Assembly: GCA_947481685.1 (NCBI GenBank)
Contig: CANKHA010000001.1
Coordinates: forward strand, 1 to 64,000
Direction: 5' to 3'
DNA length: 64,000 nucleotides
DNA from: Bradyrhizobiaceae bacterium
Lineage (GTDB): Bacteria; Pseudomonadota; Alphaproteobacteria; Rhizobiales; Xanthobacteraceae
A program made the position numbers and the translations under genes. Numbering within the stretch: the first letter of the stretch is position 1; every line of letters begins with the position of its first letter. Of the stretch, positions 3,169-31,708 are shown piece after piece. The notes beneath the pieces are model-generated. The model ran no database searches, was not told where the DNA came from, and saw nothing but the letters and a program-made list of their open reading frames with translations.

Positions 3169-3483
3169 TCCTACCTCAAATGCTGGAGCCCGAAGTCTGC
3201 CCGGAATCGGTGCAAACTTCGGGCTCCAACTACGAAGCCAAACCGATCAATTGATCGTCAGTCCGCCATCTTTGGAAACACCATCATTCTCCAAACGTGG
3301 ATACCGGTAAGCCACAGAACCGGTTATGGTTTGCCCGCTTTGGGATGCGCCGTTTCGGCGCACCTTGGCGGCTGTTTGGCGTTGCGCGAGGCGCGACGGT
3401 AGTTGAAAATACGCCATCCCTGCGGGACAGGCCCGCTTTTGTAATTCAACCACCGATGAACCGGTGGAGTACGGAGGAACACG
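3169..3483. other. Intergenic region between the two TctC-like genes
   Basis: 315 bases without a credible gene. It holds a perfect 13-bp inverted repeat (3184-3228), a small CCACCG/CGGTGG hairpin near 3450-3466, and a strong Shine-Dalgarno (GGAGG) just before the ATG at 3484. No promoter hexamers stand out. Confidence 0.5.
3184..3228. repeat. Intergenic hairpin with GAAGTTTGCACC core
   Basis: Left arm TGGAGCCCGAAGT (3184-3196) and right arm ACTTCGGGCTCCA (3216-3228) are perfect reverse complements around a 19-nt loop. Read on the minus strand, the arm-loop junction CCGAAGTTTGCACC matches the palindrome at 13756-13830, so this looks like a solo member of the same family. It sits 15 bp after the stop of the first TctC-like gene and could act as a terminator or processing site, but no T-run follows. 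Confidence 0.7.
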
Positions 3484-12515: not shown

Positions 12516-12666
12516 GTGAAATCTCCTTGAAGTCAGCCGGAAAATCACCGGCGGAACGCTTTTAGGTGGCGGGGCAGGCGGGGACAAGACCGTATTTGGC
12601 CGGGGCTTGCGAGCTTTAGTTTAATGCTTGCGCAGGTGTGTCCGGATGGACAACTTAGGAGCCATC

Positions 12667-13749
12667 ATGTCCCAGGATGTTCCCATCGGCTCGACGCAGG
12701 TGAGCCTTGCTCAACTCAATGAGCGTTCGCGGGAAATTTTCCGCCAGATCGTGGAAAATTATCTCGCGACCGGTGAACCCATGGGCTCGCGACATATCTC
12801 GCGCCTGATCCCGATGACGCTGTCGCCCGCCTCGGTGCGCAACGTGATGTCGGACCTTGAGCAGCTGGGGCTGGTCTACGCGCCGCACACCTCGGCGGGC
12901 CGCCGGCCGACGGAGCTGGGGCTTCGCTTTTTCGTCGATGCCCTGATGCAGATCGGCGATGTAACCGAACAGGAGCGCCGTGCGATCGAATCGCAGGTCG
13001 CTGCCGCCGGTTCTGCAAAATCCGTCGAGTCGGTGCTGACCGAGGCGTCGTCATTGCTGTCGGGTCTCACTCGATCCGCGGGTGTGGTGCTCGCCGCCAA
13101 GGTGAATACGCGGCTCAAACACATTGAATTTGTGCGGCTCGATCCGGAGCGCGCGCTTGCGGTGCTGGTGGCCGAAGACGGTCAGGTGGAAAACCGTATT
13201 CTTGCTATTCCGGCAGGCCTTCCGACAGCGTCGCTGACGGAGGCGAGCAATTTTCTCAATTCCCGGATTCGCGGCAAGACGCTGGCCGACACCAAGGCCG
13301 ATATCGACCGCGCGATGGAATCCGGCAAGGCGGAGCTCGATGAACTGACCCAGAAAGTCATCTCGGCCGGCCTTGCGAGCTGGTCCGGCGGCGAGAACGA
13401 TGCCCGGCAACTGATCGTGCGTGGCCACGCCAATCTGCTCGACGACCTCAAGGCGTTGGAAGACCTGGAGCGTGTGCGGCTGTTATTTGATGACCTCGAA
13501 ACCAAGCGCGGCGTGGCCGATATTCTGGGGCGGGCGGAGCAGGCGGATGGCATGCGCATCTTCATCGGCTCGGAAAACAACCTGTTTTCGCTGTCGGGCT
13601 CATCCACCATCATTTCGCCCTACCGCGACGCCGCTGGCCGTATTGTCGGGGTGATCGGGGTGATCGGACCGACCCGGCTGAACTACGCCCGGGTGATCCC
13701 GATGGTCGATTACACCGCCAAGGTGGTCGGTAAGTTGCTTGGAACATAG
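12667..13749 (+). CDS. hrcA: Heat-inducible transcription repressor HrcA
   Basis: A 360-residue repressor with an N-terminal winged helix ([24 protein letters not shown] is the recognisable start; [16 protein letters not shown] is the recognition segment) and a C-terminal GAF-like domain ending in [17 protein letters not shown]. HrcA binds CIRCE operators, usually before groESL; no CIRCE palindrome is visible in this window, so its target lies elsewhere. ATG 12667 has AGGAG just upstream. Its stop is 6 bp from a large composite palindrome that separates it from grpE. Confidence 0.94.
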
Positions 13750-13755
13750 TGGTAC

Positions 13756-13920
13756 CTAGTGTCCCGAATCCGAAGTTTGCACCCCTTTGCCGCGCATCCT
13801 CTGCGAACTTCGGATTCAAAGGGACACTAGAAAATCTATGGTTTGTGGCGTGGCTTTGGTTCAGGAGTTCCCTCCTGACCCGGCAGCAAAGGGAGGGGAA
13901 CCCCTGAACCGCCACGCCGC
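13756..13920. repeat. Composite two-hairpin intergenic element, copy 1
   Basis: Module A (13756-13830): CTAGTGTCCC pairs with GGGACACTAG and the inner GAATCCGAAGTT with AACTTCGGATTC; an unpaired AAA sits on the right arm. Module B (13845-13920): a GGCGTGGC...GGTTCAGGAGTTC arm pairs with its near-perfect complement on the right. About 14 A/T-rich bases separate the modules. The same two-module plan recurs at 31371-31538 with different bases. It fills most of the hrcA-grpE gap and begins 6 bp after the hrcA stop. Confidence 0.85.
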
Positions 13921-13983
13921 TTGATTTTTACCCTTTGAAGCCTGATATCCCGGTATCAGAGGCATGGATTGATTGAAGCAAGA

Positions 13984-14562
13984 ATGACGGACGAGAACGC
14001 ACAACCCCCGCAAGAAGAATTAGCCGTAGCGACCGAGCAGGCTCAACTGGATGAGCAGCTTGTCGTTGCCATGCAGGAATCCGTGGAGCTCAAGGACAAG
14101 GTCCTTCGCACGCTTGCCGAGATGGAGAATCTCCGCCGGCGCACCGAGCGCGAGGTGGGTGACGCGCGTACTTATGGCATCGCGAGCTTCGCCCGCGACG
14201 TGCTCAGCATTGCCGACAACATGCAGCGCGCGCTCGACGCGGCGCAGCAGGAATTGAGCGGCTCCACCGATCCGGGGGTGAAGACGTTGCTGGAAGGCGT
14301 CGAGTTGACCGAGCGCGAATTGCTCAAGGCGCTGGAAAAGAACGGCGTGAAGCGCTTCGATCCGCAGGGCCAGAAGTTCGATCCCAATCTGCATCAGGCC
14401 ATGTATGAAGTGCCGGATGCCTCCGTGCCTTCAGGTATGGTGATGCAGGTGATCCAGCCCGGCTACATGATCGGCGAGCGCATGCTGCGGCCCGCTCTGG
14501 TGGCGGTGTCGAAGGGCGGCGCGAAGGCGGTGCCCGGCGCGCAGCAGGATACGACCGCTTAG
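13984..14562 (+). CDS. grpE: Nucleotide exchange factor GrpE
   Basis: A 192-residue cofactor that releases ADP from DnaK. An acidic N-terminal tail is followed by a long coiled coil (residues about 20-80, with [20 protein letters not shown]) and the beta-wing domain ending in [18 protein letters not shown] chose ATG 13984; a TTG five codons upstream is possible but has no better ribosome site. It follows hrcA, separated by the composite palindrome, and is cut off from dnaK by a 4-kb minus-strand insertion. Confidence 0.94.
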
Positions 14563-31351: not shown

Positions 31352-31708
31352 TGGTGCGTCCCGTCCCCGACTAGTGCCGCCGATTTGAAGTTCCTACACA
31401 GCCTGCGGCAAACTCGAGTTAGGAACTTCAAATCGAAAAGCGGCACTAGAACTATAAATTGGCCCGTGTGGTTTGGTTCAGAAGTTCGCTTAACGGGACT
31501 CGCAGCGGGAATTAAGCGAACTTCTGAACGACCACACGTTGCGCGCGGTCATAGCCACGCATCTTTGTTGCGTGCGAATTTACCTCTCATACGTTGCAAT
31601 TCGGTTCATGCTGCGTACAGGTTACGTAACGTTCTATTAGCCATCAGAATTGCGGCTGCGCGCCACTTGCGGCAAAGTGCGGCTCTTCCCGACAAAATTT
31701 TGGATACC
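31352..31708. other. Intergenic region before the flavin amine oxidase
   Basis: 357 bases dominated by the composite two-hairpin element (31371-31538), followed by about 170 bases with lower GC content (TTTACCTCTCATACGTTGCAA region) where the amine-oxidase promoter presumably lies. No credible gene is seen; an in-frame upstream extension of the amine oxidase crosses both hairpins and is rejected. Confidence 0.5.
31371..31538. repeat. Composite two-hairpin intergenic element, copy 2
   Basis: Module A (31371-31449): CTAGTGCCG pairs with CGGCACTAG and CGATTTGAAGTTCCT with AGGAACTTCAAATCG; AAAAG is unpaired on the right arm, at the same place as AAA in copy 1. Module B (31465-31538): CGTGTGG...GGTTCAGAAGTTCGC pairs with its complement ending CCACACG. 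The spacer is again about 15 A/T-rich bases. Compared with copy 1, many bases differ on both arms so that pairing is kept. Confidence 0.85.

Follow-up and report, generated by a model that had tools for sequence, protein, structure and literature searches.

Integron attC sites are folded hairpins with RYYYAAC/GTTRRRY boxes that lie beside an integrase, IS5-like and IS630-like insertion sequences follow the target rules YTAR and TA, respectively, and the RIMEs, which hold two palindromes, lie on pSymB of S. meliloti. The passages of PMC3116915 and PMC8266576 that deal with REPINs and the substrates of TnpA_REP describe inverted doublets with an irregular stem and a foot tetranucleotide that are processed as a folded single strand, and PMC3733652 distinguishes the GTAG and CGTC superfamilies of REPs, with no word beginning with CTAG in its main text. 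The double hairpin analyzed here, which in most copies is bounded by CTAG, is in our assessment probably a non-autonomous mobile DNA element with two different end hairpins in inverted orientation that a putative enzyme reads as folded DNA, with insertion at CTAG. The part of the open-licence literature that was searched yielded no description of a CTAG-bounded double hairpin of Alphaproteobacteria; an earlier one may exist elsewhere.

Two copies of the element are present in the window, that is, the whole stretch of 64,000 nucleotides that was analyzed, from one contig of a Bradyrhizobiaceae bacterium (Table 1). Copy 1, with a total length of about 165 bases, lies in the hrcA-grpE gap, where an earlier note on this DNA had described a first hairpin with an outer stem, an inner stem, and an unpaired AAA on the right arm. 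That description was confirmed: the outer stem is CTAGTGTCCC/GGGACACTAG, the inner stem, of about 16 bp, is GAATCCGAAGTT../..AACTTCGGATTC, the unpaired AAA (13818-13820) is on the spacer side, and the loop contains GCCGC. The second hairpin, noted as a stem after a spacer of about 14 A/T-rich bases, is longer than had been noted, with an outer stem GTGGCGTGGC/GCCACGCCGC, an unpaired TTT in the left arm (13855-13857), and an inner stem that begins at GGTTCAGGAGTTCC; it mirrors hairpin A, such that the bulge is again on the spacer side.

Table 1 Features of the two element copies and the genes flanking copy 1 (positions in the window).
Feature	Positions	Strand	Description
hrcA	12628..13749	+	PF01628, E 5.9e-59; upstream neighbor of copy 1, outside the element
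Copy 1 hairpin A	13756..13830	+	C-type half, CTAG-TGTCC arms; 10-bp outer stem
Copy 1 spacer	13831..13844	.	AT-rich, 14 bases, between hairpins A and B
Copy 1 hairpin B	13845..13920	-	G-type half, TGG arm family; corners no longer CTAG
grpE	13969..14562	+	PF01025, E 3.9e-51 (13984-14559); downstream neighbor of copy 1, outside the element
Copy 2 hairpin A	31371..31449	+	CTAG-TGCCG arm family; AAAA bulge on right arm
Copy 2 spacer	31450..31462	.	Between the hairpins of copy 2
Copy 2 hairpin B	31463..31539	-	TGTGG arm family; TTT bulge in left arm; corners differ from CTAG

The folding of the four window hairpins yields z scores of -7.3, -4.8, -9.6, and -6.7 against 200 dinucleotide shuffles each, with no shuffle folding as well as the respective hairpin (0/200 in each case). 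A covariance model, R1, was built from 20 aligned hairpins of the same genome that were gathered by DNA-similarity searches with the two copies and then chosen and oriented by fold. This model matches the window hairpins with E values from 1.3e-17 to 6.4e-12, three of the four being among the model sequences; the values are 2.4e-13 for hairpin B of copy 1, the one outside the model, and 1.3e-17 and 6.4e-12 for hairpins A and B of copy 2. Elsewhere in the window, there is no match below E 0.05; a weak one at 3182-3229 (E 0.079) is probably due to chance.

In the same genome as a whole, R1 produces 62 matches, mostly on both strands of the same place, and these represent 31 distinct hairpins, namely, 14 pairs and 3 lone hairpins; contigs C18 and C82 overlap by 149 bases (end of C18, start of C82), and the lone hairpin in this overlap was counted once. 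One lone hairpin (L006:1501-1575; G000:C7:103694-103768) has left and right arms from different families, as though a composite had lost its middle part. A number of R1 matches are located within 200 bases of contig ends in genomes G008, G023, and G286, and also on C18/C82 of the own genome (G000); repeats of the element seem to break assemblies.

Searching related genomes with a covariance model, as the earlier note had suggested, extended the family far beyond these copies. By the named neighbors that a search with HrcA gave, the window belongs near the Xanthobacteraceae (Hyphomicrobiales). A first sample of 21 genomes contains 10 with R1 matches; these ten belong to the family of the own genome, of which 13 genomes were sampled. 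In one genus, 6 of 8 genomes have matches, and five of these contain from 78 to at least 150, both strands counted. At the level of the order, 42 of 297 genomes, the own genome included, are positive, representing 23 of 118 genera, and a class-wide sample of 337 genomes includes 19 positives, that is, the own genome and 18 genomes outside the order. Nine Roseibium and Labrenzia plasmids carry a copy at one common site. Lone hairpins without an adjoining second half were found on Sphingomonadales plasmids (L300:1999-2076, E 6e-10, and L301:2000-2075, E 1e-9), with one such hairpin each on the Sphingopyxis and Sphingobium plasmids at the places examined. One query against phages and two other queries against plasmids gave no match.

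The copies from which the general anatomy was derived come from fetched loci, many of these in few genera, and do not constitute a random sample. The hairpins are about 76 bases long. In those of the window, the outer stem measures about 10 bp and the inner stem about 16 bp, 3–4 unpaired A lie on the arm that adjoins the spacer, and the loop comprises about 21 bases; hairpin B follows the plan of hairpin A inverted. Among the 73 distinct composites, the spacer is 13 bases long in 52 and 11–14 bases long in 72. The bulges of 201 distinct hairpins are 88% A, and GCNGC occurs in 162 of the 201 loops, compared to 22.7 expected from shuffled loops, in 123 cases at offset 7–8. A finder that admitted CTAG-like corners only gives CTAG for 121 of the outer and 126 of the inner corners, out of 155 in each case; with the corners unconstrained, CTAG/CTAG is again the most frequent combination (94 of 218 hairpins), and many of the others are the same pair out of register. 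Corner changes are compensated within the hairpin in 19 cases, compared to 22 hairpins with a single one-sided change; thus, corners that travel with the element fit better than plain target duplication.

The arm families that follow the corner come in preferred combinations, namely, TGTCC with TGTGG in 32 of the 73 composites, TGCCC with TGCCG in 13, TGGTC with TGGAG in 7, and TCACC with TGTGG in 6, plus rarer ones. The dinucleotide at positions 8-9 is never identical between the two halves (0/73), and 68 composites have C at position 9 in one half and G in the other, with 5 breaking this rule. Core variants such as GAAGTTC, GACGTTC, and GACATT tend to match between halves, with exceptions such as GAAATAC paired with GAAGTTC. 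Copy 1 obeys the rule of one C half and one G half. The copy at 31371 has the same plan, as had been noted, but its hairpin A is of the TGCCG rather than the TGTCC type and both its halves are G-type, in violation of the rule; with halves from two element families, it looks like a hybrid. In copies 1 and 2 alike, hairpin B has lost the CTAG corners, and because one hairpin of each therefore lacks CTAG-like corners, both are outside the set of 73 composites.

The arms of the hairpins change in sequence and remain paired. In the 20-hairpin alignment, 98.0% of 511 pair cells are standard, compared to 27–42% when the partner is slid by 1–3 columns as a control, and both sides have changed in 17 of 26 pairs. 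The 31 distinct hairpins and their paired arms run counter to the two findings that the earlier note had named as refuting it, a lack of further copies and arms that vary without complementarity. Its proposal of selection on, or copying through, the folded form is well supported by the compensated arms. Pairing within a hairpin amounts to 98%, a figure that is partly by construction given that the hairpin finder rewards pairing, whereas the outer arms of the two halves would pair with each other at 69% of positions on average and 82% at best. Among 5225 cells, the non-standard pairs comprise 39 G-T, 41 A-C, and 31 others. Because G-T is no commoner than A-C, whereas RNA under selection would tolerate G-U, the constraint on pairing points to the level of DNA, not RNA.

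How the pairing is maintained can be gleaned from comparisons at different distances. Near-identical hairpins (at most 4% different; 54 pairs) are distinguished by 24 one-sided changes and 1 compensated change, whereas among distant hairpins (at least 20% different; 197 pairs), there are 613 compensated versus 132 one-sided changes. At low divergence, loops and bulges change about seven times faster than stems. Both contrasts are inflated to some degree by the reward for pairing in the finder. In an alignment of seven of the nine Roseibium/Labrenzia plasmid copies, there are three loop changes and four stem changes; the latter are all one-sided, and the same two plasmids have three of them in common. 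The chromosomal orthologues, in five comparisons that cover four sites, add one stem change, also one-sided. Given these exclusively one-sided changes, pairing seems to be selected during movement, and the simplest account of the data is that mismatches would arise freely in place, whereas the moving lineage would be filtered for folding. Quasi-palindrome correction, an established process, could keep the arms alike in place during replication, without a folding-dependent enzyme, and would yield compensated pairs, corners included. However, the orthologous sites, plasmid and chromosomal combined, show 5 one-sided and 0 compensated stem changes, and the A-rich bulge persists in most copies although correction would tend to erase it, so we consider this explanation highly improbable.

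The chromosomal orthologues differ by 1, 0, 0, 2 plus an indel, and 0 of about 166 bases in the five comparisons, whereas the 120 flanking bases beside them differ by 11, 16, 16, 12, and 13, that is, these sites (L314/L320, L316/L321/L329, L324/L328, L325/L330) are more conserved than their flanks, loops included. Paralogues (18 copies from 19 loci, L315 having given no hairpin) differ by 1–11% within genome G151 and by 3–23% within G176. Selection at the level of the host could explain the excess conservation of the element over its flanks, and so could one circulating copy that inserted late and in parallel; recent activity is likely in view of L313 in G151, which has the same sequence as L320, located at another site in G176. 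A structured RNA or DNA with a host function, such as a terminator or an mRNA stabilizer, that is kept by selection at each site would show such near-identity, but it would not be expected to accumulate the one-sided stem changes seen on plasmids or the loops that diverge freely between copies, and there is neither a preference for G-T nor, by a rough ORF heuristic, an orientation bias: the flanking genes at 101 places are co-directional in 53, divergent in 20, convergent in 16, and undetermined in 12 cases, which looks random. Furthermore, R1 (E up to 0.1) detects no element in the hrcA-grpE gap at any of the 80 hrcA loci of relatives; loci without the element at the orthologous site are what the earlier note had proposed to look for. 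Rfam models do not match the window elements at the gathering cut-offs or four of the loci at E up to 1. The suggestion of a structured RNA at the end of the hrcA mRNA is thus not supported, and maintenance by a host function appears to us the least probable of the explanations considered.

Comparison of alleles shows that the element moves and that a single CTAG becomes one on either side of it upon insertion. The Roseibium group is the genus to which G151 belongs, and the copies of G151 are similar to the one on the Roseibium plasmids. At six sites of this group, the flanks, once joined, can be aligned throughout with a relative; 13 of the 20 alignments tried span the joint and 7 do not. A single CTAG is present in the empty allele of one relative at L313 and of two relatives each at L318 and L322, and the occupied allele reads CTAG-element-CTAG, with one extra C in the case of L322. 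The letters at the joint in the relatives are CTGG-like at L312, CTGA/TTGA-like at L317, and GTAG-like at L327 instead of CTAG, and at L149, where four Afipia loci lack the element, the joint is GGGC and the exact target is not readable; these joints may reflect divergence or laxity. Empty sites across species of the genus of G008 (about 75–85% identity) are too diverged to read. Nested insertions tell the same story: in L201, L202, and L071, omission of the inner element together with one CTAG restores a host copy of 166–168 bases that aligns over its full length with another copy at 97–99%. Tandem copies that share one CTAG were observed in L173/L213, L187, and L250. The many copies and the empty and nested sites lend good support to the REP/MITE-like mobile unit that had been suggested as the alternative to an RNA.

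With CTAG on either side, the insertions are compatible with target duplication (of 4 bp or 2 bp), with recombination within a CTAG core, or with insertion by a single-strand enzyme 3' of CTAG. One alternative is a MITE that duplicates CTAG or TA as its target and depends on a DDE insertion sequence (IS5-like or IS630-like), in which case the hairpins would be terminal repeats that were duplicated and are bound in double-stranded form. Under this scenario, it would be natural that the outer ends have CTAGTG and much of the core heptamer in common and that the core variants agree between halves. However, the families differ greatly in their terminal bases and yet remain almost perfectly paired, which sequence-specific binding would not require, and among the examined modules without a partner, a larger relative that has such ends around a transposase was not found; nor do the fetched loci that were examined contain an insertion sequence with these ends. 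We therefore regard a DDE-type MITE as rather unlikely.

Two other repeats were encountered in the course of these comparisons. A 262-base repeat (L313:1654-1915; G151:C1) has the inverted ends GTCGTG(G/A)ACTCAT, one of them marked by CTAG and the other by CTAA, and at least its first ~131 bases are found at 21 places of G151, its own included, among the matches listed; it resembles an IS5-type MITE, and its CTAG would have been the target of the two-hairpin element. The other repeat, of about 200 bases (L196:633-832 in G008), lies between CTAGAGCGTTTTGCGATAA and its inverse ending in CTAG, is represented by four more G008 copies at 92–94% among the matches listed, and is unlike the two-hairpin element in sequence.

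Another candidate identity is a REPIN proper, that is, a REP doublet of a long-hairpin type moved by a RAYT (TnpA_REP, a Y1 HUH transposase). The element matches REPINs, as they appear in the pertinent passages of PMC3116915 and PMC8266576, in that it is a bulged doublet of inverted hairpins with a conserved tetranucleotide and compensated changes that lies scattered between genes, and Y1_Tnp (PF01797) genes are present in the copy-rich genomes G003 and G008 as well as in G012. These genes, however, were not found in the own genome, in G010, or in 12 of the 14 copy-rich genomes of the order sample (15–16 R1 matches each, with 16 candidates scored per genome). In the first sample, Y1_Tnp is present in 3 of 10 R1-positive versus 3 of 11 R1-negative genomes, and in the order, in 10 of 42 versus 35 of 255 (Fisher p 0.10; the two sets of counts were taken as the same 297 genomes by their handles). 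None of 20 Y1 loci (L077-L086, L302-L311) has an R1 match within about 1.5 kb of the Y1 gene. Hence RAYT/Y1 as the mover is supported neither by presence nor by linkage nor by the Fisher test, and given also CTAG in place of GTAG/CGTC, hairpins of about 76 rather than 20–40 bases, and the poor cross-pairing of the two hairpins, membership among the REPINs is improbable.

Candidates for the mover were sought in the vicinity of the elements as well. No gene lies between the hairpins, as in an autonomous copy, among the examined modules without a partner, and among 1469 ORFs beside elements, no neighbor gene recurs in more than 4 genomes. The best families, in 4 genomes each, presumably are SDR, tripartite-receptor, ABC, and GntR-type proteins by resemblance, and none of the 22 families listed appears transposase-like by eye, so that a recurrent neighbor gene was rejected as the mover.

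For a mobile element whose two end hairpins are read as folded DNA, the following scenario can be proposed. A putative enzyme encoded elsewhere in the cell would recognize each hairpin as folded single-stranded DNA through its bulge, loop, and corner, cut at CTAG, and reinsert the element at another CTAG; from the pairing and the bulge alone, we infer a single-stranded DNA intermediate. Only copies that fold would be moved, such that mismatches that arose in place would be purged or compensated along the moving lineage, and the difference between the halves would let each hairpin fold separately and keep the two ends distinct. More tentatively, and with less confidence than in the element itself, we propose a mobile system across the Alphaproteobacteria with its own putative non-Y1 enzyme that reads two hairpin shapes and recombines at CTAG, the arm families having radiated under selection for the fold. 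If so, many Alphaproteobacteria would harbor an unnamed mobile family that shapes intergenic DNA and breaks assemblies, a structure-reading DNA recombinase of a new kind would be its mover, and the arm families would naturally record the variation that such an enzyme accepts. The contrast of in-place decay with compensation in the lineages that move would then make "selection for mobility" measurable from sequence data alone.

Among the known systems, the mitochondrial double-hairpin elements are, going by their description in parts of PMC2800124, likewise potentially mobile two-hairpin repeats but are organellar. The RIME elements of Sinorhizobium and Rhizobium, in the sections of PMC2573895 that concern them, are likewise intergenic mosaic repeats of Hyphomicrobiales; R1 has 0 matches on S. 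meliloti pSymB (one record, with no RIME sequence as a positive control). MITEs of the IS5/IS630 type are similarly short and non-autonomous, with CTAG, or the TA within it, on both sides, but the ends of the present element are defined by the fold and not by one fixed terminal sequence. With the REPIN/RAYT system, as far as the passages cited above describe it, the element shares the inverted hairpin doublet with a spacer, the intergenic location, non-autonomy, the irregular stem, the foot tetranucleotide, and the compensated changes, and as in REPINs, it is the inverted doublet of palindromic units that moves (73 composites, with empty sites for whole composites). A REPIN in these descriptions, however, is one long hairpin of like halves, whereas the present element consists of two separate hairpins of about 76 bases and of different sequence, with CTAG at most corners, an A-rich bulge, a GCNGC loop, and no association with a Y1 gene. 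Because it departs from REPINs in its tetranucleotide, in having no associated Y1 partner, and in its unlike halves, three points that we take as defining for REPINs, we do not count it as one; by analogy, it would be a new variant of hairpin-doublet mobile elements that is REPIN-like in its working, REPINs being the elements to which it is most alike in this respect.
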